DNA of 64,000 nt, taken from positions 33,216,001 to 33,280,000 of the forward strand of contig CP142451.1 of assembly GCA_038049695.1 (NCBI GenBank), given 5' to 3'. Made by a program: the position numbers and the translations under genes. Shown here one piece after another: positions 1 through 60,563 of the stretch. This stretch comes from Cinnamomum chago (Eukaryota > Streptophyta > Magnoliopsida > Laurales > Lauraceae). Numbering within the stretch: the first letter of the stretch is position 1; each line of letters starts with the position of its first letter. Under the pieces are notes generated by a model that saw only the letters and a program-made list of their open reading frames with translations, searched no databases and was not told where the DNA came from.

Positions 1-991
1 ATATTACTTGGCAATGCATGCAATTTCCAAAGTGTCCAAATCATATGAATTCAACTACTAAGATATCCATCAACCAACATAAAAGCAAGGAATGGATTTC
101 AAAGAGATTCATATGATTAAGAACACTACTTATGAAGTTGAAACATGTATAAGGATGACATCAAGAAAATCTACATGAATCAACATCATAACCATCCATA
201 AAGATATGACTATAAGGCATAGAGGATGGATTTGGGTTCTAGTATGGTTTCTACAAGTATAACTAAGATCACAACCATACATGGAACCAATAGTCATTTG
301 CATATAAAAAGAATAACTAAATAAGCAAAGATGCAAACAACATACATTTCCAATTCTAAGATAATGAAACCAAAAGAAAAGGAAATGATAATCATGGAAC
401 ATGCTTTGATGATTATAACTAATGATGTTATAGAGCAATTCCAATCATACAATCTTCAAATCATTTTGAAAAACAAAATCCAACAATGAGCATAAAAAGT
501 ATGATTTTGAAGATCAATTTTCAACATTGTATTTTAAAAGATATAACTTAAATGAAACACATACAAGTTGATTTTTTAAAACAATGTTCTCCATATAAAA
601 GTATAACTTAGAAATCTATGGAAAAACTTGAATTGATTCAAATCATTTGTTAAAAAAAAATTACTATGACATCTACACAAATGATTCAACAACAATTGAT
701 CATGAAAAAATTAGCTATGAAAGCTTTTAAAGACACAATCAATTAATCATGTAGAAATGCAATGCAAAACATATGAGTGCAACAAGCAAATCAAACATGA
801 TGAGATTATAACCAAATGATTTTGAAAACCATGATATGTAACTAGAAGGGTGCATGAAAACAAAATCAAATGATCATAAATAAGCAATGCATCTTAAGAA
901 ATGTAACTAAGAGAGAACAAAATGCAAATGCAACTTGACCAACAAGGAGATTTAACTATTAAGAATAGGTTGGTCAAGGGGGTTCAAGGCC

Positions 992-2578
992 TTAAGGTTT
1001 GACTAAGTAGATAACTTTTGGAATCCACCTAAGGTCTTGTGAGGGTTGAACTTTGAGGTCTATTTTGGACTTCTCACCAACTATAGGAGATTTAACTTGA
1101 TAAATTTTCAATTTGAACTTATCACCATGATATTTAGATTTTACTAAATTTGGCTTAGAATGGTGATTAGTCTTTTGATGTTGGTGAGTTTGTTTCTTTG
1201 GGGATTGTTTCACTTTTCTTTTCTTCTTACTTTCTCCCTTTACTTGACTTTTGAATTTTAGATTTAACTTAGCAACTTTCTTCAAAAGTTCTTTCATGGG
1301 TTCATATAAGGGAGGTAGGTTGAGAAGCTTTTTGTTCTTAGATTCTTTCAAGCTTGGTTTAACTTGTTTAACCTTTTTAGAATCTATCTTAGGAAACTCC
1401 ATTTTAAATGATTTTACTTGTTTAAGCTTTATGGAGTCTTCCTTGGTTTTTAGTGTCTTACCCTTCAAGTTTGATTTTACTTTCTTTGGTTCAAAGACGG
1501 GATTAGACACATTGCTTCTTCTTCTTAGTTTGCACTCAAACCTAAAGTGTCCTTCATTGCCACAATAATCACATTTTGTTTTAGGCAAAGGAGAAAGAGT
1601 GCTAGAGAAAGAGGACTCACCTTTCACAAAAGTGTTGGTGAATTTAGGGTCATATGACATATTCCTATCAAATCCAAGACCCGTCCTATCTCCATGAGAT
1701 TTACCCAATTTGAATAATTTTTCAAGTTTCTCTTCACTTTGGGTAAACTTGCACTCATACTTTTGTTTATAGCTTTCAAGTTGAGTGACTTTGGTTTTAA
1801 GGGTTGAATTTTCATGTTTAACTTTTGTTAGTTCATTTTCAATTCCCTTAAAATTGTTTAGCTCTTCATAGGCAAGTTTTAACTTAGATTTAAGCTCATT
1901 AACAACATTAGATCCAAGTTCTAAAGTTTTTACATTACTTTGTGCATTAGACAAGTTTTCATTTGAAATTGTCAACTTGGAATTTAAATAGTTAATGTTT
2001 TCATCTTGTCTTTTAATTGTATCTCTTAGGTTTAAATTTTCATTTTTAAGCTCATCACAATTTATCTTAATCTCATTTAATTCATCTTGAGTATTAGATA
2101 AATTTTCCTTAGAGATAGTCAATTTGGATTCAAGATTGTTAAAGTCTTTGTCTTGCCTTTTTATTTGATCTCTTAGATTTAAATTTTCCTTATTGACATT
2201 TTCATAATCCATCTTTAAATCTCCTAGTTCATCTTGAATGTTAGATAGATTATTTAAAGAGATCATGAACTTAGATTCTAAACAATTTATGACTTCTTCT
2301 TTCTCTCTAAGCTCATCTTTTGAAGAGACTAATTCTTTGTTTAGTCTTTTAGATTCTTCTCTTAACTTTTTGTTTCTCTTTTCAGTCTTTAAGGATAATT
2401 CATATAATTCCTCAAAGGCTTGTTGAAGATCTTCTTCATTTTCTTTAATTTCTTCTTCTTTTAATTCAATTTGAGATTCTTTTAATTGAATGATGGAATC
2501 TCCAATAGAAGGAAGAATGAGGGGTCTAGAAGAATCTACAAGATCTAGCATAGTGGAGTCCATTCTAATGATTTTCAT
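992..2578 (-). CDS. Copia-like gag protein with coiled coil and zinc knuckle (unit 1)
   Basis: This 528-residue ORF begins about 90 bases inside the primer-binding site. Residues about 30-295 are a lysine/glutamate-rich coiled coil. It holds three units starting LESK/LESK/LNSK at residues 100, 149 and 198, a spacing of exactly 49 residues or seven heptads. Residues 336-349 form a C-X2-C-X4-H-X4-C zinc knuckle (C336, C339, H344, C349), the nucleic-acid-binding motif of retroelement nucleocapsids. A very basic Lys-rich tail follows and ends near a WIPK motif, like the WVPK motifs of SIRE-type Copia gag proteins. The segment before the knuckle (GDRTGLGF) also resembles those gag proteins. The ORF is intact and identical to the second unit. 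Assignment to Copia rests on these motifs and on the primer site. Confidence 0.75.
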   Translation of the reverse strand: MKIIRMDSTMLDLVDSSRPLILPSIGDSIIQLKESQIELKEEEIKENEEDLQQAFEELYELSLKTEKRNKKLREESKRLNKELVSSKDELREKEEVINCLESKFMISLNNLSNIQDELGDLKMDYENVNKENLNLRDQIKRQDKDFNNLESKLTISKENLSNTQDELNEIKINCDELKNENLNLRDTIKRQDENINYLNSKLTISNENLSNAQSNVKTLELGSNVVNELKSKLKLAYEELNNFKGIENELTKVKHENSTLKTKVTQLESYKQKYECKFTQSEEKLEKLFKLGKSHGDRTGLGFDRNMSYDPKFTNTFVKGESSFSSTLSPLPKTKCDYCGNEGHFRFECKLRRRSNVSNPVFEPKKVKSNLKGKTLKTKEDSIKLKQVKSFKMEFPKIDSKKVKQVKPSLKESKNKKLLNLPPLYEPMKELLKKVAKLNLKFKSQVKGESKKKRKVKQSPKKQTHQHQKTNHHSKPNLVKSKYHGDKFKLKIYQVKSPIVGEKSKIDLKVQPSQDLRWIPKVIYLVKP

Positions 2579-2665
2579 ATAAAGGACAACTCTAGGGTTT
2601 TAACTCTAGGTTTTTACACCTAATCAAGAGTTCCAAACACTTGATCCTAAGGGATAGAGCACGAA

Positions 2666-2677
2666 GCTCTGATACCA
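2666..2677 (-). other. Primer-binding site (initiator Met tRNA)
   Basis: The minus strand reads TGGTATCAGAGC two bases inside the LTR end at 2680. This is the usual initiator-methionine tRNA primer site of plant Copia elements. The sequence after it (TTCGTGC) does not continue the match. Confidence 0.85.
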
Positions 2678-2679
2678 AT

Positions 2680-4586
2680 TGAAAGTCCACGAGGATCCTA
2701 ACCCTAGAGGGGGGGGTGAATAGGGTGAGCTACAACTATGACCAATTTAAAGCAATTTTAATTTCTTAAACAAAACTAGTCATATGTGATGATTAACAAT
2801 CAAAATGCGGAAGCTAAACAAAATCAATCACCACAAAGCATGCACCACAACACCAATGTTTATAGTGGTTCGGCCTCAATGCCTACATCCACTACCGGCT
2901 TGTGAATCCAATCACCCCACCGGATTTCCACTATTTATGCTTTTAACTAGGCTAAGCAATAACCCTTACAATGTGCTTTTAGAGGCTAAGCAATAACCTT
3001 TCAATATGCTTTTCTTAGGCTAAGCAATAACCTTACAATATGCTTTTCTTAGGCTAAGCAATAACCTTACAATATGCTTTTCAAAGGCTAAGCAATAACC
3101 TTACACAATGTAGATTTCTCTAAGAAGGTGTCTTTCCAAAAGATCACTCTAAGAGATACAAATTAAAGCTCAAAGAAATTGCCTCTTAAATAGGCGGATA
3201 TGAAAGTGTAATACAAACTCACACAAACACTCTATGTATGCAAAAGTGTATGCTCATGATGTGTGTGTGTGATGACTTCAATCAATTTTAAAATGAAGGC
3301 TCATTCATATGTATGCTCAAAGCATTTCAAAGTTTAAGACATATAAAAGATTTGAATGAAGTCTAATGCAAATCACATGTATGTTAAATAACTTGTTTAT
3401 GATATGAAAATCAAAAATCACAAGTTGTATGAAAATGACTAACTTAGAACATGTGATGCATGTGCAATGTTGTTTTCAAAAACAAATCAATTTAACTAAA
3501 GTTTAAATGTATGAAAACAACAAAGGAAGTTTCAACCAAGACAAAGAATCATGCATTAAAGGAAATCAAAGATTTTAGGCTAAGCATGATTAAGAAAGTT
3601 TTAAAAACAACTTGGATTGAAACCTAATGTGAAGAATCCAATCTTAATTAGACCAAAGATTAGAAGAAGAAAGGATTCTACACATCATAGTTATCATGTA
3701 CAAAACCATTTACCAATAGCTTAAGCAAAACATGAAAACTATGATTAACAAAAGGTAGAGCTTACTTGGTTGTTTAACTCATTGATCCAAGCTTTAGCTC
3801 TCCTAATGACCTTCTAGCCTTTCCAACTTCTTCCCCTTTGTTTTGCTCCAAAATGCTCTCAAAGGCTCATTTTTTCAACTCTTTGAGAAGTTGGAAATGA
3901 ATGGACTTTATAGGCAAAAAACAGTCCACGGGCTAGTTGTCTCGGTCGACCTAGAAGAGCTCGGTCGACCGGGACAACACAACGGTCATATTTCTGACCG
4001 TTGGGAAATTTCTGCACAGAAACTTCCCAGGGCCCTGCAGTGTCCTCGGTCGACCGAGACACAGGGCTCGGTCGACCGGCGACACTGCCGGGCGAGTCCC
4101 TGGGCCAAAAATCCACTTTTTTTCATTTTCAAAGTTTTTCTTTGGGGGATCTTTTTGGCCACTAAATCAAGCTTAAAAACATGTTTTAAAACATATAAAA
4201 ACATGAAACACACAAAGCCAAAATGATTCAAAGGTTTAAAACCAAAGGCTAGCTTGATTTGATAAAAACTCTTTTCAAGTGAACAAGCATACAAAAATGA
4301 TTCTTTTTGTAATGAATGCATGCAAAGCTCAAACCTAAATACCTAACATGATTTTCCAAATATAATGCACATGGAAATAGGTTTTCAAAAAGAGTTTGGG
4401 TTCTAAAACCAATGCATCCAAGATTCGAACCAAAACATGCATAAACCAAAAACTTTTTCAAAACTAAAAACTAATGCATGTATAAAACTAGATTTCAAGA
4501 TATTTTAAATCAATGCATGTGTGTGAATTCAAATGATGCCAATATGCAAATGCATCCACCAAATTGCAAAAACAAAATACCTAACA
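2680..4586 (-). repeat. LTR (shared middle LTR) of the gag-only Copia-like element
   Basis: This 1907-bp LTR has TG...CA ends on the minus strand. It is bounded above by the polypurine tract of the upstream unit and below by the primer-binding site of the next unit, so it serves as 3' LTR for one unit and 5' LTR for the other. It contains four GGTCGACC palindromes (3944, 3963, 4048, 4070). It also has a run of AGGCTAAGCAATAACC-like words near 2948-3105, which is a short tandem repeat of about 40-45 bp. Confidence 0.85.
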
Positions 4587-5000: not shown

Positions 5001-6992
5001 TTAAATTGCAAAGGTACCTACACACATGAGACAAGGAAAATACCTTTAGTAGCACCTGTTTAACAAATGAAATCGAAAATGAATTACATATCAGGCTATC
5101 ATGTATGGAAGTTAGCTCTAAGGGTTCAAAGGCAATCCAAGGGTAAATTTGATCAAACTAATACTTCCTATGAAAGTTTACACTCCCCCTCAATCCATTC
5201 TCTTCTTTTGTCAAGCTTTTGACAAGATATAACTATTAGATTCAAGAAGTAGATGGTTTAACCAAGTGAGGGTTAACTTCAAGGAAAGGATTAGATTCAT
5301 TTAACTATTAAGCACAATATGATCAAATTACCAAAAGAGAGCTAGGTCTAATGGGAGAAGCAATCATGGATATCAATTGAAACAAACATATCAATTGAGA
5401 TTAAAGGATGTGACTATAAAATCAATCACTCTAAAATGGATTTAAAAGTATAACTATTATGAGAAATCCAAATTAGAGCTATCCATGATGTGGGGTTTAC
5501 TCAAACATAGCATCAATCAATATTACTTATGAAAATCATATGCTATGTAAGATTTTGAAAATCATTTCATTCAATCAATAAATATGACTTATTAAAGTGC
5601 ATGAATGAGTGAAATGAAATTCAATCATGAAGCCAACCTCAACTAATAACCATCCAATATTATGAACACATAAACATGGTGGTCATGAGATATACCTATA
5701 AGAGCAAAGGAGGTGACAATCATGAGCATTATGATGCTAATGGTGTGTGACATGGAACAATCATATAACTATCAAGTTCAATCCAATGTACACATGGTCT
5801 ATCACATACACAAGATAAGATATCAATTGGATATGAAATCAATGGAAAGTTATACCAAATGAGACCAATTGAATATGATAACATGAATAAAAGCAAGGAT
5901 GTGACAAACTTCCATCAAGCATCATAAATGCATATTCATCACTTTTAATGATATAACTATTGAGCATAGTGATGAACAATGGTAAATTGCAATGCAAAAG
6001 AATATTACTTGGCAATGCATGCAATTTCCAAAGTGTCCAAATCATATGAATTCAACTACTAAGATATCCATCAACCAACATAAAAGCAAGGAATGGATTT
6101 CAAAGAGATTCATATGATTAAGAACACTACTTATGAAGTTGAAACATGTATAAGGATGACATCAAGAAAATCTACATGAATCAACATCATAACCATCCAT
6201 AAAGATATGACTATAAGGCATAGAGGATGGATTTGGGTTCTAGTATGGTTTCTACAAGTATAACTAAGATCACAACCATACATGGAACCAATAGTCATTT
6301 GCATATAAAAAGAATAACTAAATAAGCAAAGATGCAAACAACATACATTTCCAATTCTAAGATAATGAAACCAAAAGAAAAGGAAATGATAATCATGGAA
6401 CATGCTTTGATGATTATAACTAATGATGTTATAGAGCAATTCCAATCATACAATCTTCAAATCATTTTGAAAAACAAAATCCAACAATGAGCATAAAAAG
6501 TATGATTTTGAAGATCAATTTTCAACATTGTATTTTAAAAGATATAACTTAAATGAAACACATACAAGTTGATTTTTTAAAACAATGTTCTCCATATAAA
6601 AGTATAACTTAGAAATCTATGGAAAAACTTGAATTGATTCAAATCATTTGTTAAAAAAAAATTACTATGACATCTACACAAATGATTCAACAACAATTGA
6701 TCATGAAAAAATTAGCTATGAAAGCTTTTAAAGACACAATCAATTAATCATGTAGAAATGCAATGCAAAACATATGAGTGCAACAAGCAAATCAAACATG
6801 ATGAGATTATAACCAAATGATTTTGAAAACCATGATATGTAACTAGAAGGGTGCATGAAAACAAAATCAAATGATCATAAATAAGCAATGCATCTTAAGA
6901 AATGTAACTAAGAGAGAACAAAATGCAAATGCAACTTGACCAACAAGGAGATTTAACTATTAAGAATAGGTTGGTCAAGGGGGTTCAAGGCC

Positions 6993-8579
6993 TTAAGGTT
7001 TGACTAAGTAGATAACTTTTGGAATCCACCTAAGGTCTTGTGAGGGTTGAACTTTGAGGTCTATTTTGGACTTCTCACCAACTATAGGAGATTTAACTTG
7101 ATAAATTTTCAATTTGAACTTATCACCATGATATTTAGATTTTACTAAATTTGGCTTAGAATGGTGATTAGTCTTTTGATGTTGGTGAGTTTGTTTCTTT
7201 GGGGATTGTTTCACTTTTCTTTTCTTCTTACTTTCTCCCTTTACTTGACTTTTGAATTTTAGATTTAACTTAGCAACTTTCTTCAAAAGTTCTTTCATGG
7301 GTTCATATAAGGGAGGTAGGTTGAGAAGCTTTTTGTTCTTAGATTCTTTCAAGCTTGGTTTAACTTGTTTAACCTTTTTAGAATCTATCTTAGGAAACTC
7401 CATTTTAAATGATTTTACTTGTTTAAGCTTTATGGAGTCTTCCTTGGTTTTTAGTGTCTTACCCTTCAAGTTTGATTTTACTTTCTTTGGTTCAAAGACG
7501 GGATTAGACACATTGCTTCTTCTTCTTAGTTTGCACTCAAACCTAAAGTGTCCTTCATTGCCACAATAATCACATTTTGTTTTAGGCAAAGGAGAAAGAG
7601 TGCTAGAGAAAGAGGACTCACCTTTCACAAAAGTGTTGGTGAATTTAGGGTCATATGACATATTCCTATCAAATCCAAGACCCGTCCTATCTCCATGAGA
7701 TTTACCCAATTTGAATAATTTTTCAAGTTTCTCTTCACTTTGGGTAAACTTGCACTCATACTTTTGTTTATAGCTTTCAAGTTGAGTGACTTTGGTTTTA
7801 AGGGTTGAATTTTCATGTTTAACTTTTGTTAGTTCATTTTCAATTCCCTTAAAATTGTTTAGCTCTTCATAGGCAAGTTTTAACTTAGATTTAAGCTCAT
7901 TAACAACATTAGATCCAAGTTCTAAAGTTTTTACATTACTTTGTGCATTAGACAAGTTTTCATTTGAAATTGTCAACTTGGAATTTAAATAGTTAATGTT
8001 TTCATCTTGTCTTTTAATTGTATCTCTTAGGTTTAAATTTTCATTTTTAAGCTCATCACAATTTATCTTAATCTCATTTAATTCATCTTGAGTATTAGAT
8101 AAATTTTCCTTAGAGATAGTCAATTTGGATTCAAGATTGTTAAAGTCTTTGTCTTGCCTTTTTATTTGATCTCTTAGATTTAAATTTTCCTTATTGACAT
8201 TTTCATAATCCATCTTTAAATCTCCTAGTTCATCTTGAATGTTAGATAGATTATTTAAAGAGATCATGAACTTAGATTCTAAACAATTTATGACTTCTTC
8301 TTTCTCTCTAAGCTCATCTTTTGAAGAGACTAATTCTTTGTTTAGTCTTTTAGATTCTTCTCTTAACTTTTTGTTTCTCTTTTCAGTCTTTAAGGATAAT
8401 TCATATAATTCCTCAAAGGCTTGTTGAAGATCTTCTTCATTTTCTTTAATTTCTTCTTCTTTTAATTCAATTTGAGATTCTTTTAATTGAATGATGGAAT
8501 CTCCAATAGAAGGAAGAATGAGGGGTCTAGAAGAATCTACAAGATCTAGCATAGTGGAGTCCATTCTAATGATTTTCAT
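6993..8579 (-). CDS. Copia-like gag protein with coiled coil and zinc knuckle (unit 2)
   Basis: This second copy is identical in protein sequence to the ORF at 992-2578, with the same 49-residue coiled-coil repeats and CCHC knuckle. It belongs to the complete unit bounded by LTRs 8681-10587 and 2680-4586. Two intact identical copies imply a very recent insertion or tandem duplication, or an assembly duplication. Confidence 0.75.
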   Translation of the reverse strand: MKIIRMDSTMLDLVDSSRPLILPSIGDSIIQLKESQIELKEEEIKENEEDLQQAFEELYELSLKTEKRNKKLREESKRLNKELVSSKDELREKEEVINCLESKFMISLNNLSNIQDELGDLKMDYENVNKENLNLRDQIKRQDKDFNNLESKLTISKENLSNTQDELNEIKINCDELKNENLNLRDTIKRQDENINYLNSKLTISNENLSNAQSNVKTLELGSNVVNELKSKLKLAYEELNNFKGIENELTKVKHENSTLKTKVTQLESYKQKYECKFTQSEEKLEKLFKLGKSHGDRTGLGFDRNMSYDPKFTNTFVKGESSFSSTLSPLPKTKCDYCGNEGHFRFECKLRRRSNVSNPVFEPKKVKSNLKGKTLKTKEDSIKLKQVKSFKMEFPKIDSKKVKQVKPSLKESKNKKLLNLPPLYEPMKELLKKVAKLNLKFKSQVKGESKKKRKVKQSPKKQTHQHQKTNHHSKPNLVKSKYHGDKFKLKIYQVKSPIVGEKSKIDLKVQPSQDLRWIPKVIYLVKP

Positions 8580-8666
8580 ATAAAGGACAACTCTAGGGTT
8601 TTAACTCTAGGTTTTTACACCTAATCAAGAGTTCCAAACACTTGATCCTAAGGGATAGAGCACGAA

Positions 8667-8678
8667 GCTCTGATACCA
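8667..8678 (-). other. Primer-binding site (initiator Met tRNA), second unit
   Basis: This is the same TGGTATCAGAGC site two bases inside the LTR end at 8681. It starts the internal region that carries the gag ORF at 6993-8579. Confidence 0.85.
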
Positions 8679-8680
8679 AT

Positions 8681-10587
8681 TGAAAGTCCACGAGGATCCT
8701 AACCCTAGAGGGGGGGGTGAATAGGGTGAGCTACAACTATGACCAATTTAAAGCAATTTTAATTTCTTAAACAAAACTAGTCATATGTGATGATTAACAA
8801 TCAAAATGCGGAAGCTAAACAAAATCAATCACCACAAAGCATGCACCACAACACCAATGTTTATAGTGGTTCGGCCTCAATGCCTACATCCACTACCGGC
8901 TTGTGAATCCAATCACCCCACCGGATTTCCACTATTTATGCTTTTAACTAGGCTAAGCAATAACCCTTACAATGTGCTTTTAGAGGCTAAGCAATAACCT
9001 TTCAATATGCTTTTCTTAGGCTAAGCAATAACCTTACAATATGCTTTTCTTAGGCTAAGCAATAACCTTACAATATGCTTTTCAAAGGCTAAGCAATAAC
9101 CTTACACAATGTAGATTTCTCTAAGAAGGTGTCTTTCCAAAAGATCACTCTAAGAGATACAAATTAAAGCTCAAAGAAATTGCCTCTTAAATAGGCGGAT
9201 ATGAAAGTGTAATACAAACTCACACAAACACTCTATGTATGCAAAAGTGTATGCTCATGATGTGTGTGTGTGATGACTTCAATCAATTTTAAAATGAAGG
9301 CTCATTCATATGTATGCTCAAAGCATTTCAAAGTTTAAGACATATAAAAGATTTGAATGAAGTCTAATGCAAATCACATGTATGTTAAATAACTTGTTTA
9401 TGATATGAAAATCAAAAATCACAAGTTGTATGAAAATGACTAACTTAGAACATGTGATGCATGTGCAATGTTGTTTTCAAAAACAAATCAATTTAACTAA
9501 AGTTTAAATGTATGAAAACAACAAAGGAAGTTTCAACCAAGACAAAGAATCATGCATTAAAGGAAATCAAAGATTTTAGGCTAAGCATGATTAAGAAAGT
9601 TTTAAAAACAACTTGGATTGAAACCTAATGTGAAGAATCCAATCTTAATTAGACCAAAGATTAGAAGAAGAAAGGATTCTACACATCATAGTTATCATGT
9701 ACAAAACCATTTACCAATAGCTTAAGCAAAACATGAAAACTATGATTAACAAAAGGTAGAGCTTACTTGGTTGTTTAACTCATTGATCCAAGCTTTAGCT
9801 CTCCTAATGACCTTCTAGCCTTTCCAACTTCTTCCCCTTTGTTTTGCTCCAAAATGCTCTCAAAGGCTCATTTTTTCAACTCTTTGAGAAGTTGGAAATG
9901 AATGGACTTTATAGGCAAAAAACAGTCCACGGGCTAGTTGTCTCGGTCGACCTAGAAGAGCTCGGTCGACCGGGACAACACAACGGTCATATTTCTGACC
10001 GTTGGGAAATTTCTGCACAGAAACTTCCCAGGGCCCTGCAGTGTCCTCGGTCGACCGAGACACAGGGCTCGGTCGACCGGCGACACTGCCGGGCGAGTCC
10101 CTGGGCCAAAAATCCACTTTTTTTCATTTTCAAAGTTTTTCTTTGGGGGATCTTTTTGGCCACTAAATCAAGCTTAAAAACATGTTTTAAAACATATAAA
10201 AACATGAAACACACAAAGCCAAAATGATTCAAAGGTTTAAAACCAAAGGCTAGCTTGATTTGATAAAAACTCTTTTCAAGTGAACAAGCATACAAAAATG
10301 ATTCTTTTTGTAATGAATGCATGCAAAGCTCAAACCTAAATACCTAACATGATTTTCCAAATATAATGCACATGGAAATAGGTTTTCAAAAAGAGTTTGG
10401 GTTCTAAAACCAATGCATCCAAGATTCGAACCAAAACATGCATAAACCAAAAACTTTTCCAAAACTAAAAACTAATGCATGTATAAAACTAGATTTCAAG
10501 ATATTTTAAATCAATGCATGTGTGTGAATTCAAATGATGCCAATATGCAAATGCATCCACCAAATTGCAAAAACAAAATACCTAACA
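8681..10587 (-). repeat. LTR (outer 5' LTR) of the gag-only Copia-like element
   Basis: This is the 1907-bp copy of the LTR at 2680-4586 and is essentially identical to it. Sequence homology to the first copy stops abruptly at 10587, where unrelated DNA begins. That is the outer end of the insertion. Confidence 0.87.

Positions 10588-12993: not shown

Positions 12994-13033
<40 letters not shown>
12977..13033. repeat. Compound GT/CT/AT microsatellite
   Basis: A run of GT is followed by CT and then AT dinucleotides, directly abutting MITE A at 13034. Confidence 0.95.
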
Positions 13034-13277
13034 GGGGCCAGCTCTCCTAAGTTGAAGCTTACCTTATCTTAAGCTGAAACAGTGCTGGTTCTACAAATCA
13101 AAGTCGATTATTGTTGTTTTTTGTATGATGATCGTCTTCAAAATCAAGATAAATCTAATCAGAACTGGATTTTCCAGTTCCATCATGCAAAATATATATA
13201 TAATCAACTTTGATTTGTGGGACCGACACTATTCCAACTTATGATAAGGTAAGCTTCAGCTTAAGAGAGCCTTGCTC
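13034..13277. mobile_element. MITE A in a TA microsatellite
   Basis: The inverted ends are about 50 bp. The left end, GGCCAGCTCTCCTAAGTTG, pairs with the right end, whose complement starts GAGCAAGGCTCTCTTAAGC. Both continue into AAGCTTACCTTATC. TA repeats flank both sides (13007-13033 and 13278-13286). The same end family recurs at 59609-60000. There is no ORF. Confidence 0.75.
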
Positions 13278-13286
13278 ATATATATA

Positions 13287-13417
13287 GGGCTATGCTCACA
13301 CAAGCTGCAGCCTACCTTATTACAAGCTGGAGCGTGTGAGACCTAGGTGAGGCCTAACTGTGCTTATGAGGATCCAGCTTGTAATAAGGTAGGCTGCAGC
13401 TTGTGTAAGCATAGCCC
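13287..13417. mobile_element. MITE B, near-perfect hairpin in a TA microsatellite
   Basis: It is 131 bp with 45-bp inverted arms (13287-13331 and 13373-13417) that differ at one base. The arms start GGGCTATGCTCACACAAGC. TA repeats lie on both sides, and the left repeat is shared with MITE A. Confidence 0.85.
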
Positions 13418-13489
13418 ATATATATATATTGCTCATCGTAATTTTGTGAGCAATTAAACTCCTTAAATTGATGGAGTGGCTCTCACCCT

Positions 13490-13990
13490 TGCTCGGAGTT
13501 TCTCAATGACGATAAGGGTGTACCGACATCAGTCATCAATCCAGCGTATGAGCACTGGATGAAGTTACTCATTTTTCATCAGATCCATAGTATGCTCACA
13601 ACACTAATCCTTCAACGCTTATTTGGACTCCGAACTTCCCATGGGTTACTTAAAGGCTTCATTGGAGCTATTTCATCTTATCTAAAATTGATCTTGTGAG
13701 TTTCAATTGAAGCAAGCAACAATTTCACAACCTAAAGAAAGGTGGCCTCTATCTACTTGAAAGATGGGTTTGCAAATTCTCTTGAAGCTATTAAACATTT
13801 AATTTTAGACTATGATTTATGTTACTAAATTTTTAATGGTATCTAAACAACTGTAACTAAAAATTTATCAAAAGATATCAATCTCTTTATTTAAAACCAA
13901 ATTTGAATGTCAAATCTCAAGCTAACTCTATCTCATCTAGAAACCACGTATATTTCTTTACTAAAAAACTAAATTTTATATTTTTCCTCT
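13490..13990 (+). pseudogene. Decayed Copia gag remnant
   Basis: Conceptual reading near 13535-13600 gives NPAYEHWMK followed by a leucine-rich stretch and then LRTSHG. This resembles the capsid (UBN2-type) region of Copia gag proteins. The fragment is old and broken, and no LTRs are recognised for it. Confidence 0.5.
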
Positions 13991-14776
13991 TAGCATTGAT
14001 TTTTAACACACCGCTTCAATGCTAACTCCCATCCACTTATACCATTTTAGGTACAAACTTAAAAAATTTCTAAGTTCACCAATCTGTTCATTGTTCAATA
14101 TTATTGTAAGTTTAATCAAGGGCGGAACCCGAAATTTTGTTAAGGAGGGGCCAAAGAAAAAAAACTTTAAAAAATTAAAAAATTAAGTAAGAAAAAACAC
14201 AATAATCAAATTATTGAAGCTATGCTTGGAGTTCTCTCATTGAGTTGAAATCATCAATTATTGTGTTAGTATTGAGTTTTTCTGTAATTTCTTTTTCAAT
14301 ATATACAATCAAATAATATCTAGAAGAAATTCATCGTCCATATCAATTGATACAAGGGAAGATGTCTGACTTTTCCATTTCCATTAATCCTAGGCAGAGT
14401 TCATATATAGTTCATGAGATAAAGTATCGGTACCAAGGGTGAAATTGTATTATCCTCTAAATTGAACAACTTTTCTTTTAAAATATGAATCAATCATTGA
14501 TGATTTAACCATGGTCAACACCCCTATAAGGAACGAGAGATTAAAGATATATTATTTTTTTAGAGAATTGGTGATAACTACAATAAATTAGGCAAACTCA
14601 AATCATTACTATAACATAAACGAATTACGCAGAGATACCCATGCCTAATTTATATCATATATTTAATGACTATTGCGTAGAAAAGTCAGTCTTAGAAATT
14701 CACTCATAGCATTTATTAAGTAGTAATCAAGTGATATTGTGGATTATTAATTGAGAACATTTAAGTGTGCTCATTG
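13991..14776. other. AT-rich sequence without a gene
   Basis: No convincing ORF is seen. The stretch near 14120-14150 (GGGCGGAACCCG...GGAGGGGCC) resembles ends of a common plant repeat also hinted at near 56690 and 58438. Confidence 0.4.
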
Positions 14777-14803
14777 ATATATATATATATATATATATAT
14801 ATA

Positions 14804-14885
14804 GGGAAATGTTTAAGTGCAAAAAAGGGAAAGTGCCCTATGCCCTCACCCTATGGTGAGGGATGTATGCACTTGAACATTTTCC
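14804..14885. mobile_element. MITE C, 82 bp, in TA/GT microsatellites
   Basis: The ends GGGAAATGTTTAAGTGCA and the complement of TGCACTTGAACATTTTCC form inverted arms. An inner hairpin CCTCACCCTATGGTGAGG is present. It is flanked by TA repeats (to 14803 and 14886-14895). Confidence 0.75.

Positions 14886-14894
<9 letters not shown>

Positions 14895-14950
<56 letters not shown>
14895..14950. repeat. GT microsatellite
   Basis: About 27 consecutive GT units directly follow the TA repeat that flanks MITE C. Confidence 0.97.
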
Positions 14951-14952
<2 letters not shown>

Positions 14953-15004
14953 TTGGACCCACATTTAAAACCTAAGCATTTCAAAAGCACAATCCCATTA
15001 TTTT

Positions 15005-15228
15005 TTTTTGTCTCCATTTAAGAACTTACTTCAATTAGATTCGTTCTCATATAAATAATCACAAGAAGATAAATTTTTCATATTTATTCATGGTAGATAA
15101 ACTCTGTTTGGATTAAGAATTTGCGTAATAGTGGAAAACAAAAAAAGAAGTGATTTTGAGCGGGTTAGATTTCAAGTATAAGCATCAATAATTGAATAAC
15201 AAAATAATGTATAGTGCATTAGTAAATC
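15005..15228. repeat. Diverged direct repeat, copy 1
   Basis: It starts at TTGTCTCCATTTAAG and ends at the TA repeat before MITE D. It is similar in order and wording to 15788-16025; for example, GGTTAGATTTCAAGTATAAG compares with GGATTAGATTTCAATATAAG. This suggests that MITE D and about 160 bp lie between two copies of an older duplication. Confidence 0.55.
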
Positions 15229-15248
15229 TCATATATATATATATATAT

Positions 15249-15622
15249 GGAAAATATTTACGCGCTTCCATCCCTCGCCATATTAGGTGAGGGCCAACAT
15301 AGTAGGGCCAACTACATCCGAACTATCTACACACATAGGACCCCTGAATTACATTGGACCCAATGAGTTTTCACCTATCTGAATGGATTGGACTGTTGGA
15401 TCGAGAGTCGGATTTTTTCCTTTAACATAAAGTTGTTAAGTTTGTAGGCCACAGATGAAAGGGTTAGAGGCATGTGATTGACCCCCAAACTTAGTATATG
15501 GGCTCATCCAAGGTGTCTCTTTCCATCCCCCCAAGTCCCATGATTAGTGGGGTCCCAAGTGGGCCCCATTAAGTTTGTCCTTCGCCATTTGGGGAGGGAA
15601 GGATGCATATGAATGCCCTCCT
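15249..15622. mobile_element. MITE D in a TA microsatellite
   Basis: The left end reads GGAAAATATTTACGCGCTTC and then CATCCCTCGCC. The right end, complemented, reads GGAGGGCATTCATATGCATC followed by CTTCCCTCCCC. TA repeats flank it (to 15248, and TATATATT from 15623). The ends resemble MITE H at 60350, so this is a longer, more diverged member. Confidence 0.6.
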
Positions 15623-15787
15623 ATATATTAAAGCATAAAATGATTCTAAAGATGGTGCAGGACCTTTCATATACATCTAACTTATAAGCTAAACTTCGAA
15701 ACTTTTTTATTCAAAAGCATAAAGAAAATCAATAAGAGTGCACCATATCTACAATCCAAACCATTCAAATACATGGTCCGACTTGTT

Positions 15788-16025: not shown

Positions 16026-16407
16026 ATAAATAAAATTTTGCTTGCAAAAGAGAAGTGGGTTCTTTGTTTCTTCTTCTTTTTTACTTGTACCTAGGTGTCG
16101 GGCTCTCTGCAACCTACAAGTCTTTCTCCACCAAGCCGTAGTCTCTGTGTCTCTCCTCTTCTGCTCTTTTATCACAATATTTGGGGTTATCACAATATTT
16201 ACGGGAAGTGTAGATAGTTTTTTAGTTTTTAATGATTATTTTCTCCTCCAATCTCCAATCAAGCCTTTTGTATTTATCCTCCTTTTCTTCCTTTCTTGTC
16301 TTTATTCATTTCAAGTTTTCCCCAAAATCAATGCTTTTGTTTCCTTCTCCCTTCCCGAGTTCCAATCTGCTTATTACCCAGTGCTTGCCACAATTGTACA
16401 TAGTAAC

Positions 16408-16974
16408 TGTAAGGGCTCCAAACTCAAGCCAAGTCTGGGTCGAAACCGACCCAACCTGCGAGGCAAGTCCGACCTGCAGAACAAGTCAAGGCTCGAATCA
16501 AGGTCGGCCCAACCTGCGAAATTGATCCAGGCTCAAACTGAGCCCAGCCTGACCTGTAGAACTAGTCCAGGCTAACCCAAACCACTTGACGCAGGGAATG
16601 GAGAAACAAGGGACAGTTAGCGGAACCAGAGGAATAAAATACGGAATGGGGCGATGCATTCCTCCCACGATGGGAGGACACGAACGCCTCAGTTGCCATG
16701 ATCGAAGGTTTATTCTAAGGGTAGAGAGGATCCGGAAAAATCCAGGTAAAACATGATAAAAGGGGAATAAATGGTGATTAATGGGGATTGGATTCTAACA
16801 AAAGCATTGGAGAAAGTTCGGTCGGACCTACCGATCGAGTTTCACAGTGTTCTTTTCTTCTTAAATAGATATCTCATTCAAGAGAGGGGATTCTGCTCGG
16901 AGAAAAAGAGTAAACATCGCATTGAGAAGTAAGGTTGTTCCATCTTATCCTTTCTCCTCAAAACTGACCTTACA
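16408..16974 (+). repeat. 5' LTR of the Tat element
   Basis: The 567-bp LTR begins TGTAAGGGCTCC and ends CTGACCTTACA. It contains short direct repeats of CCAACCTGCGA near 16455 and 16508. Confidence 0.9.
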
Positions 16975-22813: not shown

Positions 22814-25402
22814 CTTTTGTATCCAAGAAGTTATCGTCTTTGTATTTTGCATTTTATCTACGAAAGTTGCTTTACGATCTTGTGCCAAGGAGTAAATTAC
22901 CTATGACTTGTATAAGGGCAAGGACCCGCAGTAGGAATAATTTCCTACCGAGACAACCGCCATGATAAGGCTAAGGACTAAAAATAGAAGGTAGTAACAG
23001 ACTCATTACTTCGTGCCGTAAGGAAAAAAAATCCTAACTGGGAGCGTTTCAAGCTAGGTATACTGCATTGATCTTCCTTTAATCAATGTCTTGGCATGAC
23101 GATGCAAACATTGATTTAAAGGGAGTTCGGACAAAGGCTGACAGTGGCAGTAGGCATGGATAACATTGATTCAACAAAAGAGATACACAAGAGATGAGCA
23201 TTTCATTTAAAAGCGCAAAAGAAGGAACATTAAAAGGGGTGTTGTGTCTGGCCCACAGGTTGAGCGATTCATTAAAACCAAAATACACCAAAAGGGGAGG
23301 GGGGGGGGGGGGAGAATTTTTCAATTCTTCAAACAACTTTAGGGACATTAGGAGCAAGAGCGGTAGGGTCGGCAGTAGGAGAAGCACCTTCGTCACCGAC
23401 CACAGGCGAGCTGGACCTTCCTACAGGATCCTGAGTAGGGGCTTTAGCAGGCAATGGCTGAGTTGGAGAAGTGTTGGCTGAACTGTGTGCTTGGCCCAGA
23501 GGGAAGAGTCTCTCGGAACACCAGCATCATTTAAACCCACGTTATACCTCCGCTTGAACACGAGGGCTTTCATCCGCTAATCCTGGTCAAGATAAATCGC
23601 CTCGACCTCCTCGAACGCTGCATCCTTTGACTGTTCCATAGCAGGGAACAAATTTTCCTAACTGTAGCGCCACCGACGGGAAGTCATCTACTCCCTCACC
23701 CAAAGAAGAATGGGACCCAGGAAGAGAGCTCGGCGAACTCTTACGCCCTAGAGAAGGGCTTGGTTGAGGAGGCAGAGGAGGCAAACTGTCTTCCAACCAA
23801 ATAGAGAGCGGGTCCGAATCATCGACCAACTGGGCCGATGATTTACCCTTCGTCTTTTTCGGGCCAAGGTCACGAGGAGAATCGACTAGAGTTCTTTTGC
23901 CAAGGACAGAGGGAGGATCTTGAAGGGGAACCTTACCTATCTCAGAAGAGGGAAGATCGCCGAGATTGCCAAGTAAGTTCTTCGCCTTACGCTTGGACAT
24001 GGTGGAGAATGGTCTATCGAGATCTGAAGAAGAGGAGTCGTCCGATATGTCTTAAGACTAAAGCCTGCTTTGAATAGGAAGAGGAAGAAGTACTAGACTG
24101 AGACGACCTCCTAAGACCTCGCCTCCGACCAGGGGTAGTTTGCTCGGCAGTAGGCGATGGACCAGAAGATCACTGGGAGGCTGAAGAATAAGCATTGATC
24201 GTTCCACCCCGGCTTGAAGACCTTGGCGTCTTTACAGCTGGAATCTTCCTCCATAGTGGACGATGGATGGGCTCCCCTAGATTGTCTCCGGGATTATGCC
24301 AAGACGGAATTGCTAGAAAACTGTCGTAGGATCGCTCATACCCAAGCAGAATATGAGCAGCCCAACCCCAACCATGTAACTCGGGAGGACCACAGTAGTC
24401 AAGAAATGTATTTAGATCATTAGTCCGAAGAAGAGATTGGGGAACCTGGTTGATTACTGAATCTACAGATAAAGATAGGGTAAGAAGCTGAGTAAAAGAG
24501 AAAAATCGGTACATAGGGAGAGAAAAATTGATGCAGGAGGGGGCCGACTTGGGAAACCTAGGACTTGGGGGACTTCTCGACTGACCCCGCCCCAGGTGGT
24601 CGATGCCTCCCAGTTGCCGCTAACAATGGTAAAATCTCCCTTGCTAGGCTTGTTCGAATCTGGGAGATAGTGAACAAGAAGCCTATTTTGGTCGTGAGAT
24701 TTCAGATAGAAAACCGTTTTTTGATTGTTAAGGGGAACAAGGGAGTAACGGGAAAGACTATCAAATACTCTGATATTGGTGTCGAGCAGTTTGTTCAGCG
24801 CGGCCACCCCCGTCACGATGCGGAATAAGTTAGGGGCGCATTGAAGGGGAAAAAGATTTGTGAAAGAAAGGAAGCGAATGAGGAGAGGATTCAAGGGGAA
24901 ACGGAAACCACCTTCCACGATGGCAATTGTAAGGAAGGGCATGGCCTCACGGGAACCACTGTCGAGGGATTCTCAGAGAAACGGCGCGCGGATTTGAACA
25001 TCCGGGGGGTATCATATTTACACCTAAATTCAGTGAGCCCCTCTGGGTTGTTGAGAAGTCCCCTCAGATTACCCATTCTAAAAGAGAGAAGATAAAAGAG
25101 AGCAAGAGGGAGAGAAGGACTTACAGTCAAGAAAGCGGAAGCGAAGGAAAAGAATGAGGATTGGAGCTTTCATGGATAAGGAAGAGATGAGACGGTTTGC
25201 AAGAGGCAGAATGAATGGGATGCATTTTCCTTAGATGGGTTATGAGATTCCGCAAGAGGCACGAAGGGTAAAGATGGAAGGACGCCGGGCGGCTTGCATA
25301 CAAGGTGGTGACTCCAGAAGCTCCTAGTGGATACAGAGGTACTACTGCAAGCCTCCTTTCTCCTCGGAAAACGGAGAGGAAAAAGGATGCTTGGGGGGCA
25401 AT
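22814..25402 (-). other. Tat 3' region with antisense ORFs
   Basis: Between pol and the 3' LTR the longest open stretches lie on the minus strand: 23587-24000, 24170-24514, 24463-24942 and 25170-25625, the last reaching into the LTR. The one at 24463-24942 (159 residues) has FRFPLNPLLIRFLSF, LAPLQ-like and KGDFTIVSGNWE motifs. These recall the plant transposon-associated protein found as an antisense accessory ORF in several Tat elements. Its function is unknown. An 18-base G-rich run lies at 23296-23313. Confidence 0.6.
25389..25402 (+). other. Polypurine tract of the Tat element
   Basis: The sequence GCTTGGGGGGCAAT directly precedes the 3' LTR start TGTAAGGG. The G run is the probable plus-strand primer. 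Confidence 0.65.
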
Positions 25403-25972
25403 TGTAAGGGCTCCAAACTCGAGTCAGGTCTGAGTCGAAACCGACCCAACCTACGAGGCAAGTCCGACTTGCAGAACCAGTCAAGGATCGGATCACGGTC
25501 GGCCCAACCTGCGAAATTGATCCAGGCTCAAACCGATCCCAGCCCGACCTACGGAACAGGTCCAGGCTACACTCGACGCAGGGAATGGAGAAACATGGGA
25601 CAGCTGGGGGAACCAGAGGAATCAAAATACGGAATGGGGCGATGCATTCCTCCCACGATGGGAGGACATGAATAGGAACACGAACGCCTCAGTCGCCATG
25701 ATCGAAGGTTGATTTTAGGGGTAGAGAGGATCCGGGAATCTAGGTAAAATAGGATAAAAGGGGAAAATTTGGTGATTAATGGGGATTGAATTCTAACAAA
25801 AGCATCGGAGAAAGTTTGGTCGGAGCTACTGATCGAGTTTCACTATGTTCTTTTTTTCTTAAACAGATATCTCATTCAAGAGAGGGGATTCTGCTCGGAG
25901 AAGAAGAGTAAACATCGCATTGAGAAGTAAGGTTGTTCCATCTTATCCTTTCTCCTTAAAACTGACCTTATA
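25403..25972 (+). repeat. 3' LTR of the Tat element
   Basis: The 570-bp LTR aligns along its length with 16408-16974, apart from roughly 40 differences and a few small indels. It ends ACTGACCTTATA. Confidence 0.88.
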
Positions 25973-26520: not shown

Positions 26521-27628
26521 CAACTACAAAAAAGAGGCTTTTAGCAACGGTTTTTTTCATTGCTGAAAGTTTTTTTTTTTTCATGACACAAAATGCTTTT
26601 CATTGCTAAAAGGTTATTTTTATGTTAGATGGTTGATTTTGAGTATAAAATGGCACTTTAGCAACGATTTGAAAAAACCGTCACTAAAAATTTCTTTCTT
26701 GTTTGGGAAATTCTAAATGCACCCACATAACTTGCTGAGCACACCTACATTCTGAGCTCACCACAAAAAAAATATAAAGGATCTCTTTTTGCCAAGCCCA
26801 CCCACAGTAATTCCCAAACTGCCCTCTTCTCCTCTCTCCTTTTTCTCCTCTTTTTCTGAAAACGGAAGGGAATCTATGCAAATGGAATGAAGGGTGGGTT
26901 GCAATTGGGAGGGAAACACCATTTAATGGAAGGGATGGAAGAGAAGAGAAGGAAAATCCCAAACATAGTGAAACCCAAAAAAAAATTGTTCGCGTTATGC
27001 ACGGAAACGCAGAGCCATGCACATAAAAACGTGAACGGCGACTCCAAGTCGTGCACAATTTTTTTTGCACGCCATATGAAAACCGTGCAAGACGCAACTC
27101 CATGGATGGCCGATCACTGTCACATTGCACGGCTTATGATGGCAGAGCACAACATATGATGCACGGTTATGCAATTCCGTGCAGGACGCGAACGGAAAGA
27201 AAAAAAAACAATGTGTTAAAAAAAACGATACATTCTCTTCATAGATGGTCATATGCTGGTCCATATTAGTGATGGTTTCTCTAAAACACAATGTGGTGCT
27301 TAAGATTGGAGGTGTGGTAGATTATATGGGGAAATTGAGAGGTGGATTAGGAGATGAATTCTTCCAAGAACTAATGGTGGGAGCTTTATGATGATGAGAA
27401 TAAGAAGAAGAAGAAGAAGAAGCATAGTGATGAAGGGAAAGAAGTGCAGAAGAAGAAGAAATCACTTGAAGAGAGGAAGAAGAAGAAATCGGCTAAAGAG
27501 GAAGATGAAGTCAGGGGTACTTTCAGTATTTCACATATGGGTATTTTGGTAATAATAAAAAAAATTAAAATGTGGGTGTGCTTAGCAAATTACGTGGGTA
27601 CATTTAGAATTTCTCTTCTTGTTTAGTG
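26521..27628. mobile_element. CACTA-like MITE split by a MULE
   Basis: The left end, CAACTACAAAAAAGAGGC, continues into TTTTAGCAACGGTTTTTT. The right end, read as complement, is CACTAAACAAGAAAG and continues into TTTTTAGTGACGGTTTTTTC. Ends of CACTA type with AGCAACGG/AGTGACGG inner repeats are typical of plant CACTA miniatures. The element is interrupted by the MULE at 26705-27615, whose target duplication lies in its right end. No matching 3-bp target duplication is visible, so the outer limits are uncertain. Confidence 0.5.
26705..27615. mobile_element. MULE, non-autonomous, with 9-bp target duplication
   Basis: The 911-bp element is flanked by perfect TTCTTGTTT repeats (26696-26704 and 27616-27624). 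The inverted ends start GGGAAATTCTAAATGCACCC (left) and GAGAAATTCTAAATGTACCC (right, complement) and continue into TTGCT(G/A)AGCACACC. A 9-bp duplication is the Mutator signature. No transposase is visible. The interior has an AAG/GAA-rich block (27405-27500) and a cluster of GCACG words (26995-27190). Confidence 0.85.
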
Positions 27629-35229: not shown

Positions 35230-35593
35230 GGTGCAGTGCCCATGTCAAAAACATGGGTGGGGCCCACCTTTGGAAAATCCAAACCTCTTATTAGCTCTAG
35301 TATGATTGTAGTGATCAAATGATAAATTATTATTCAAATTAGTGACATGGCCACCGTTGGATCAACTAAACTTGAAATCTGTGATTAACTTTCTTTACTT
35401 TTCTATTTTTAATGGGTAAAAAATGGAAGGAGCCTCTTATGTGTGAAATTTGGTGATCAATCCATCGATTGGCCCATTGAAATAGACTTTGAATATTCAA
35501 ATACAAACCATACAATGGGTCTTAGGGCTGTGGAGCGGTTTGGATTTTCCAAATGTGGGCCCCACCCATGTTTTTGACATGGGCGCTGGCACC
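35230..35593. mobile_element. MITE with about 55-bp inverted arms
   Basis: The arm at 35232-35290 (CAGTGCCCATGTCAAAAACA... to GGAAAATCCAAACC) is nearly the exact reverse complement of 35536-35590. There is no ORF and no clear target duplication, so the superfamily is undetermined. Confidence 0.7.
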
Positions 35594-50774: not shown

Positions 50775-50845
50775 AGAGAGATGCTAAATGCACACACAAC
50801 TTTGATCACTACACACTGCAAATTTCTTTAACCAAAATAACCACA

Positions 50846-51121
50846 TTATAATATATTAAGTTTGGAGGTTTTGACTTCAATTTTGACCGTGGTTATAATT
50901 TTGAAAGACGGTTATGTAACTACTGATGTAACTATCGACTCATTTTTCCATCAAACCATCATGGTTCAATTGTTCCTATGTAACTATACCCTATTTCCTC
51001 CAATTTCTCTATTTCTATTTTATTCAACTTGTCTTATAAAAAGAGATAATTTTTTTTAATATGTGATTATTTATTTTACAATGCAAGGAGATACCGTGCT
51101 GAGCACCGGTTATTGGGCTAG
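50846..51121 (+). mobile_element. Mini-Helitron 1
   Basis: The 3' end is a hairpin ACCGTGCTGAGCACCGGT followed by TATTGGGCTAG, the Helitron CTAG terminus with T next. The start TATAATATATTAAGTTTGG parallels the start of the next copy. There is no coding sequence. Confidence 0.6.
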
Positions 51122-51997: not shown

Positions 51998-51998
51998 G

Positions 51999-59161: not shown

Positions 59162-59242
59162 TTCACATTATAGTTGTGATAAATGTTTTATATCAGTTGT
59201 CAACTTTTATTTGGTGCAACCCTCCTCTTTTTTTTATATATA

Positions 59243-59397
59243 GGGAGATGCTCCTATGAGAGATGCTCTCACCATACTATGAGAGATAAGGTGGAGGTCA
59301 TCACATTCATATCTAATACCAACAACTTAAATGTGAGGGCCCCCACTCCTATCTCTCATATAAGGTGAGAGATATGTTTCATATGAACATCTCCCCC
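59243..59397. mobile_element. MITE E in a TA microsatellite
   Basis: It is 155 bp. The left end GGGAGATGCTCCTATGAGAG and right end (complement) GGGGGAGATGTTCATATGAA are inverted relatives with an inner CTCTCACC...TATGAGAGATA segment on both arms. TA repeats lie at 59235-59242 and 59398-59412. Confidence 0.7.
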
Positions 59398-59608
59398 ATA
59401 TATATATATATATGAGTTATGCTACAAAACTCCCCGGGCCCTTTTTTCTTTTAGCCAATAAAAGTTATTCGATTCTCTCTACTAAATATTTTCCTACAAA
59501 GGTGAATCTCTTAAAATATTAACAAATCATTGGCTATTAGATAGGGGCAGAAACTCCCCTTTTGAGATATGAGAGTTTTTGAGAATTTTCTATATATATA
59601 TTTATATA

Positions 59609-60000
59609 GAGAACAAGGCTCTCATAAGCTGAAACTTAGGATAAGGTAAGTTGAAGTAAGCTCAATTGTGTGGTGGGGTCCACCTGAGGACCCACATGGG
59701 GATGGGGGTGGGGAGGATTTTAAAGACTCTCTAGGACCCTCCTTCCTGCAAAAAATCAGCCCTAACTGTGGTTTCTATCATCTCCATTGGGCACCAAAAG
59801 TTTCATGGTCAATGATCCATTCGGATCGGTACACAGTCGATCCAACAGTCTAGTAAATTTGGATTTGACCAAAAGTTGGTGGGTATGTGCAATTTAGGGG
59901 GGTAGTGTGTTTGGTCCATTTGGATGGACCAAGGATGGGTTCCAGAATCGTTAGCTTACGGAATCTTATTCTAAGCTTAAGCTTAGGAGAGCCGTGCTCA
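59609..60000 (+). mobile_element. MITE F in a TA microsatellite
   Basis: It is 392 bp. The ends GAACAAGGCTCTCATAAGC and, in complement, GAGCACGGCTCTCCTAAGC are inverted and of the same family as MITE A. The interior includes GGACCCTCCTTCCTGC and TGTTTGGTCCATTTGGATG. TA repeats lie on both sides. Confidence 0.72.
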
Positions 60001-60011
60001 TATATATATAT

Positions 60012-60305
60012 AAAGCTTAGGATAAAATCCCGTAAGCTCGCACTTGTGGGGCCCACCCTTGGTTCATCCAAATGGACCAAACACATGACCCCCCTATATT
60101 GCACATGTCCATCAAGTTTTGGTCAGATCTGAATTTACTGGACCATTGGATCGACTGTATACCGATTTCAATGGACTGTTGACCATTAAAATTTTAGGGC
60201 CCGGATGAAGATGATAAAAACCACGGTTGGGGGCTGAATTTTTGTACAGAGGAGGGTCCTAGGGAGTCCTTGAAACCAATGATAAAAGCTTAGTATGTGT
60301 TGTGC

Positions 60306-60314
<9 letters not shown>
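60012..60314 (-). mobile_element. MITE G, inverted copy of F
   Basis: The reverse complement of this stretch follows MITE F word for word in order: GGACCCTCC, GTGGTTTTTATCATC, ACAGTCGATCCAA, TGTGTTTGGTCCATTTGG, GTAAGC...TAAGCTT. The two copies face each other across an 11-bp TA repeat. The end nearest F has lost about 20 bp, and the far end merges into GT/TA repeats. Confidence 0.7.
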
Positions 60315-60349
<35 letters not shown>

Positions 60350-60351
<2 letters not shown>

Positions 60352-60519
60352 GGAATGTTCATATGCATCCATCCCTCACCATGGGGTGAGGGATGCTTCC
60401 ATAAATAGGGGGTTTCAAGTACAAAAGGGAAATTTCAAGTACATAGGGTGTACTTGAAACCCCTCATTTATAGAAGCATCCCTCACCCCATGGTGAGGGA
60501 TGGATGCATATGAACATTC

Positions 60520-60522
<3 letters not shown>
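60350..60522. mobile_element. MITE H, near-perfect hairpin in a TA microsatellite
   Basis: It is 173 bp. Arms of about 70 bp start GGGGAATGTTCATATGCATC on both sides, then CATCCCTCACCATGGGGTGA. They pair almost without mismatch and leave a short loop. TA repeats of about 35 bp flank both sides (60315-60349 and 60523-60560). Confidence 0.85.

Positions 60523-60560
<38 letters not shown>

Positions 60561-60563
<3 letters not shown>

Follow-up and report, generated by a model that had tools for sequence, protein, structure and literature searches.

In the present study, a 64,000-nucleotide stretch of the genome of Cinnamomum chago (assembly GCA_038049695.1, contig CP142451.1, positions 33,216,001 to 33,280,000 of the forward strand; hereafter, the window) was analysed with regard to eight short elements, named A to H, that lie between runs of TA repeats (Table 1). 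These elements are very probably miniature inverted-repeat transposable elements (MITEs) derived from Mutator-like elements (MULEs), that is, non-autonomous elements served in trans by a MULE transposase that makes a 9-bp staggered cut and strongly prefers TA tracts. They are most readily interpreted as new families of an already published microsatellite-targeting kind, represented by MuTAnT, SaTar, Ac-mMITE and Micron. An earlier note on this DNA had placed the eight elements in TA microsatellites, and its coordinates hold, with TA runs around all of them. As separate cases, A, B, C, D, E, F and H stand, whereas G is an inverted copy of F that is truncated at its ends.

Inverted repeats between TA runs

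The inverted similarity of the inner flanks was scored for pairs of TA runs (73 runs of at least 6 bp, 215 pairs at distances of 60-1500 bp), and 60000 random position pairs provided the chance level. Nine pairs of TA runs reached a score of at least 26, against 0.37 expected, and seven reached at least 40, against 0.05 expected, confirming that the clustering in TA runs is far beyond chance, as had been claimed. The nine pairs correspond to H, B, A, E, F and C, to F with a second run, to a cross pair from A to B, and to an internal TATATA of another inverted-repeat element, M58 (Table 1); counted as separate TA-bounded elements, six score at least 26, five of them at least 40. The terminal inverted repeats (TIRs) of A, B, E, F and H score 40-90, those of C 26 and those of D a weak 20, in agreement with the long TIRs of the MULE superfamily. 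Control anchors gave fewer pairs at a score of at least 26, namely none for six different A/T 6-mers, 4 of 478 for other dinucleotide runs (none at 40 or above), and, for A/T homopolymers, 4 of 653 with runs of at least 6 bp and 4 of 189 with runs of at least 7 bp, one of the latter, element X, scoring at least 40. At this lower threshold, TA runs of at least 6 bp exceed homopolymer anchors of at least 7 bp only about twofold, and 7 of the 58 pairs of TA runs of at least 7 bp score at least 26. An end of A, B, C, D, E, F or H adjoins 8 of the 10 TA runs of at least 12 bp and 10 of the 16 of at least 9 bp.

The window is also rich in elements, since the same kind of scan at a score of at least 30 returned five elements in 64 kb and two hits in a sample of 200 kb, made up of 20 stretches of 10 kb, in which elements were too scarce for an unbiased test of phase. 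Both hits fall in one stretch, L053, one of them with doubtful boundaries. In this stretch, which was picked by position only, an E-type element stands beside an H-type element with a 6-bp TA run between them (L053:7064-7427).

The 40-base ends of the elements, scored against 3000 random 40-mers of the window, form two groups, A, B, F and G (group I) and C, D, E and H (group II), instead of the at least three end families distinguished previously. The ends of A are linked to those of B (31) and F (41), those of H to C (52), D (38) and E (32), and those of C to D (33); no random 40-mer scored as well in any of these comparisons. The link between B and F reaches just 18 (16 to 46 of the 3000 random 40-mers as good), E is tied weakly to C (19) and D (16), and the best scores between the groups do not exceed 15. 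A small inverted repeat like ATCCCTCACC..GGTGAGGGAT follows most group II ends, and the motif TATATAGGGnnATGyT, with up to two mismatches, is found six times in the window (0.98 expected), the four exact occurrences being those of B, C, E and H. The hairpin folds of A, B, C, E and H have z values from -6.8 to -18.7. The interval F0 was considered as a further element and is at best a doubtful candidate, as 40 of 200 shuffles fold equally well (z -0.8) and its ends have no clear TIR.

TA phase and target duplications in the window

A TA tract conceals how long a target duplication is, but its parity can still be read. An odd duplication within a TA tract makes the base before the element equal to the base after it, whereas the two edge bases differ after an even duplication or when the TA lies within the inverted repeat. 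Equal edge bases were observed in all seven of A, B, C, D, E, F and H (8 of 8 counting F0), and different ones at G, whose ends are missing. For A, B, C and H, as well as F0, the two sides of the element match exactly over 9 bp; the exact match extends over 7 bases in D and E and over 5 in F before the TA pattern breaks. Two further inverted-repeat elements, I26 and M58, are bordered by the exact 9-bp duplications TTCTTGTTT and TTCACATTA, respectively, indicating that insertion of the MULE type occurs in the window. These two were retained from a window scan for 9-bp duplications that returned 12 rows, 7 of them in TA. The other three non-TA rows were dropped, two as an A+T-rich pair seen twice through a 6-kb duplication and one as spanning that duplication. 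At 8, 10 and 11 bp, all rows either lay in TA, spanned the duplication or came from within B.

Copies of H and B in the genome

Two families, H and B, were traced into the assembly (1.06 Gb in 14 contigs). The best 40 of 1308 candidates for H and the best 40 of 275 for B were scored, and 39 copies of each were analysed (for H, those other than H itself), selected as the best-scoring ones. For H, with the boundary fixed on the element sequence, a side was considered TA-bounded when TA/AT steps made up at least 88% of those in the 10 bp next to it. Most copies of both families are flanked by the microsatellite on both sides (22 of 39 for H and 29 of 39 for B); TA is found on one side in 4 copies of each, and no TA run on either side in 13 H and 6 B copies. 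Among the copies seen, and set against the small share of pure TA 9-mers given below, insertion outside TA repeats is not equally frequent, the condition that the earlier note had named as refuting its proposal.

The phase observed in the window was largely repeated in these copies. Among the TA-bounded ones, the edge bases are equal in 29 of 29 for B, 28 of them without mismatch at 9 bp, and in 17 of 22 for H, where a 9-bp duplication with at most one mismatch fits 20 of 22. Both families are also found outside microsatellites, where the duplication can be read directly. It is exactly 9 bp in 8 of the 13 H copies (seven events) and in 5 of the 6 B copies, and one more copy of each family has it with one mismatch. 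When all 27 H and B copies that are not TA-bounded on both sides were considered, 19 matched at 9 bp with at most one mismatch, compared with 3 at 7 bp, 2 at 8 bp, 0 at 10 bp and 2 at 11 bp. Thus, the duplications of both families fall within the 8-11 bp by which MULEs are recognised, and within the 9-10 bp reported for such families outside microsatellites. Two H copies, L018 and L024, lie within one larger repeat on contig C2, with flanks 93-97% identical; they are a single insertion event copied with its surroundings. Different families are joined through microsatellites without nesting, as in the stacks A-B and E-F-G-H of the window and at 4 of the 39 H loci, where E-type elements (one of them partial) adjoin the H copy over TA-rich gaps of 15-69 bp.

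Target preference and alternative explanations

Pure alternating TA 9-mers make up only 0.107% of the positions in the 200-kb sample, and TA is therefore strongly favoured in the copies seen. A high A+T content is found in the 14 non-TA duplications as well (84%, compared with 61% in the background), with 1.36 TA steps per 9-mer compared with 0.53. These values could also be explained by insertion that is broadly directed to A+T, with TA sites surviving better as harmless ones, and the observation that the non-TA targets are A+T-rich and no more alternating than the background fits this explanation. However, the several-hundredfold enrichment over the share of pure TA 9-mers would seem large for survival alone, and we consider such an origin unlikely; a preference for the target, rather than selection after insertion, is presumably the cause. 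Alternatively, the TA runs might belong to the elements, either as TIRs ending in TA or, as the earlier note had also suggested, as runs that the element makes, and the presence of TA at both ends of most copies seen would be expected. In this case, the flanks should be mirror images, the left ending in A and the right beginning with T, whereas the runs are mostly direct and in an odd-length register, and the H and B copies with no TA run on either side speak against it as well. This suggestion has accordingly been given up as highly improbable, although TA runs may have expanded after insertion.

The same phase argues against Tc1/mariner MITEs (Stowaway), for which TA is the target and a 2-bp TA duplication could easily have been expanded into runs. 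That duplication predicts opposite edge bases (..TA, element, TA..), whereas equal ones predominate in the window and in both families, and the copies outside TA have duplications of 9 bp; the 2-bp TA duplication of Stowaway is thus not what the odd phase and the non-TA duplications reveal, and a Stowaway origin is hardly credible. Tourist elements (PIF/Harbinger), with a duplication of 3 bp, were set aside on account of the 9-bp match of the non-TA copies; the odd phase alone would be insufficient for this. Finally, homologous recombination through circular intermediates with microsatellite filler, proposed for SaTar of guayule (PMC5907723), has the support of that published proposal and of the stacked arrays, which are found here too, and the phase could be passed on by a circle that derives from an odd-phased donor. 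Nevertheless, H and B make 9-bp duplications outside TA, and their TA insertions mostly keep the phase of the same cut. Since the same 9-bp cut accounts for the insertions in both settings, one mechanism suffices, and the circle route appears quite improbable for these elements. We therefore lean towards the view, held with some reserve, that a single transposition with a 9-bp staggered cut yields both the ordinary insertions and those in TA repeats, with no special recombination route, and that this can be read from the odd phase.

Several observations weigh against MULE-derived MITEs with a 9-bp cut and a TA preference. Among the TA-bounded H copies, L026 and L043 fit an even length only, and when the H boundary is set at the last G/C, 15 copies have equal edges and 5 different ones. 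Other scanned TA-bounded elements near H copies, with uncurated boundaries, gave 5 equal and 2 different (n=7), and the scanned elements of L053, also with uncurated boundaries, 1 equal and 1 different. The H and B copies analysed are the most similar ones and not a random sample. The non-TA target 9-mers are no more purine-pyrimidine-alternating than the background (0.46 vs 0.44), and the ends of groups I and II appear only weakly alike when their bases are compared. Three of the 150 listed MULE-domain loci (5.8 kb each) were examined and revealed no autonomous element with such ends, and no empty site was found when the joined flanks of the 39 H copies were compared with about 355 kb of DNA, so that the state before insertion is deduced. 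One alignment just spanning the junction (L046-L106) was considered as an empty site and read instead as shared TA-rich repeat sequence.

Proposed mechanism and search for a transposase

Herein, we propose that a MULE transposase acting in trans would recognise the element ends, GGG..ATGyT in B, C, E and H and the diverged GAGCA.GGCTCTC in A and F, excise the element and join it to a staggered cut, by which 9 bp would be duplicated. The enzyme would strongly favour alternating TA tracts and would also use other A+T-rich 9-mers. Insertion into a tract would leave TA on either side, and thereby a fresh target beside each element; because TA is kept on both sides, elements would come to stack side by side without nesting. 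Later slippage in steps of 2 bp may lengthen or shorten the TA runs with the phase kept. Families A, C, D and F would be expected to behave like H and B.

MULE transposase domains are abundant in the genome, where 150 of 3015 candidates were scored and all 150 lay above the curated cut-off. One of the three loci examined, L108, has inverted repeats of its own. Among the domain matches, rows of near-equal score and length recur, and an intronless reading frame of 754 aa with a MULE domain was noted at L107:2009-4273; its protein presumably resembles FAR1/FHY3-type proteins. Within the window, a Pfam analysis of 20 of the 35 reading frames of at least 120 codons identified no MULE transposase. 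Viral and prokaryote contigs were scanned for exact patterns of the group ends, with no match.

Comparison with known systems

The earlier note had likened the elements to rice Micron and suspected a wider set sharing this target. TA microsatellites are indeed the shared target here, comparable with Micron, and the wider set has already been published (PMC4486113, PMC5907723, PMC8449440). A close counterpart is described in Medicago truncatula, where MuTAnT comprises foldback MULE MITEs, mostly of 200-300 bp, in TA microsatellites, with 9-bp duplications for copies outside perfect microsatellites and a variable number of terminal G (PMC4486113). The TIR search mask of MuTAnT, GGGGTTTGCTAGAACA, matches the B end, GGGCTATGCTCACACA, at 11 of 16 positions, a count made by eye and carrying no significance figure. 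A putative autonomous element was identified for MuTAnT, whereas none was found here at the three MULE-domain loci.

SaTar, Ac-mMITE and Micron were likened to the present elements by description, not by sequence. SaTar elements of guayule, rice, sorghum and citrus are described as short non-autonomous MULEs in microsatellites, and share with those of C. chago the TIRs, the flanks of TA (and other) microsatellites, the non-nested arrays of different families and some duplications of 9-10 bp; in the same text, the duplication is 10 bp in guayule and 9 or 10 bp in citrus, in contrast to 9 bp in most copies here (PMC5907723). Many of the guayule microsatellite insertions were judged inconsistent with cut-and-paste, and circles with homologous recombination were suggested, according to that text, whereas the phase observed here mostly fits ordinary 9-bp cut-and-paste (PMC5907723). 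Words starting with "phase" or "odd" are absent from the main text of that paper; our literature search was not aimed at the phase test, for which no novelty is claimed. In pineapple, the Ac-mMITEs are clustered, non-nested MITEs of TA microsatellites with 9/10-bp duplications outside TA, and no autonomous element is reported for them either; they differ in that their ends are mostly GA/TC, and 53,014 elements were reported (PMC8449440). Micron of rice (Akagi 2001) is, as described in PMC5907723, PMC4486113 and PMC12550479, a MITE in (TA)n, and the first of these papers reports that its TIRs are shared with a rice MULE. The Micron-like MITEs of a survey of 207 plants appear to be the same kind of element (PMC12550479).

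Layout and other features of the window

The elements lie in two clusters, A, B, C and D in one and E, F, G and H in the other, with A-B and E-F-G-H standing side by side without nesting (Table 1).

Table 1. Positions of the TA-bounded elements, their flanking runs and other features of the window
Feature	Positions	Strand	Length	Group	Remarks
(TA)13 run	13008..13033				left flank of A, after TG and TC runs
Element A	13034..13277		244 bp	I	long imperfect hairpin; TIR score 52; DNA fold z -10.4; ends related to B and F
ATATATATA	13278..13286		exactly 9 bp		sole DNA separating A and B; corresponds to a single 9-bp target duplication
Element B	13287..13417		131 bp	I	hairpin; 45-base arms with one base difference; z -13.5
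TA run	13418..13429				right flank of B
TA run	14777..14803		27 bp		left flank of C
Element C	14804..14885		82 bp	II	TIR score 26; z -6.8; ends related to D and H
TA run	14886..14895				right flank of C; passes into (TG)28
TA run	15231..15248				left flank of D
Element D	15249..15621		373 bp	II	diverged TIRs; TIR score 20; ends related to C and H
TATATAT	15622..15628				right flank of D
TA run	59235..59242				left flank of E
Element E	59243..59397		155 bp	II	linked to the group via H only; z -7.2
TA run	59398..59413				right flank of E
Interval F0	59414..59590				TA runs on both sides; ends resembling the motif; TIR and hairpin unconvincing; z -0.8
Imperfect TA run	59591..59608				left flank of F
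Element F	59609..59999	+	391 bp	I	TIR score 40; ends related to A, weakly to B
TA run	60000..60012				separates F and G
Element G	60013..60314	-		I	inverted copy of F, 81% over 263 bp, without both ends
TA run	60315..60349		35 bp		left flank of H
Element H	60350..60522		173 bp	II	long hairpin; z -18.7
TA run	60523..60561		39 bp		right flank of H
Direct duplication	1-4586 / 6002-10587		4,586 bp		99.98% identity; touches left edge of window
Direct repeats	16405-16972 / 25400-25970				88% identical; RT_RNaseH_2 and RVT_3 reading frames between
I26	26705-27615		911 bp		inverted-repeat element; exact 9-bp duplication
IRX15/GXM domain reading frame	30552-31472	-			
Inverted-repeat element	35230-35593		364 bp		60-bp TIRs at 93%; TAT adjoins both ends
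Hexapeptide-repeat fragment	39922-40326	-			
X	50776-52232		1457 bp		inverted-repeat element; ends GAGAGATGCTAAATGC; between T runs
M58	58139-59161		1023 bp		TIRs of about 124 bp (82%); exact 9-bp duplication; 81 bp before E

Three other inverted-repeat elements were compared with the TA-bounded ones by their ends. The ends of M58 are unrelated to them. Those of I26 and X are related to each other in the pairwise comparison; no exact duplication was found at the edges of X, where T runs blur it. A link between the TA-bounded elements and I26 and X was considered, and no firm claim is made, as the pairwise links are weak and the likeness was noticed before testing. In a 12-bp end profile run over 124430 positions, the X ends rank joint third and the I26 ends 31 and 127; with F0 removed from the profile, X falls to 72 and I26 to 59 and 616. 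In a 16-bp profile, the ends of X and I26 rank between 270 and 3679 with F0 and between 1444 and 7018 without it.

Of the remaining features, the duplication of 4,586 bp is either a recent tandem duplication or an assembly artefact. The direct repeats with reading frames between them look like an old long terminal repeat retrotransposon, probably of the Gypsy type. The TAT at the ends of the 364-bp element is possibly a 3-bp duplication. The IRX15/GXM domain is, we assume, that of a plant cell-wall family.

Implications

The present results add a further genome to those in which MITEs of the Mutator type land in TA microsatellites. The TA-phase test provides a cheap means, requiring nothing beyond the letters of the DNA, of recovering the parity of a duplication that the TA repeats hide, and bears on the open question of how elements enter microsatellites. 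If the phase observed in C. chago is general, the same count made on the elements of guayule, rice and pineapple would help in choosing between circles with recombination and cut-and-paste transposition.

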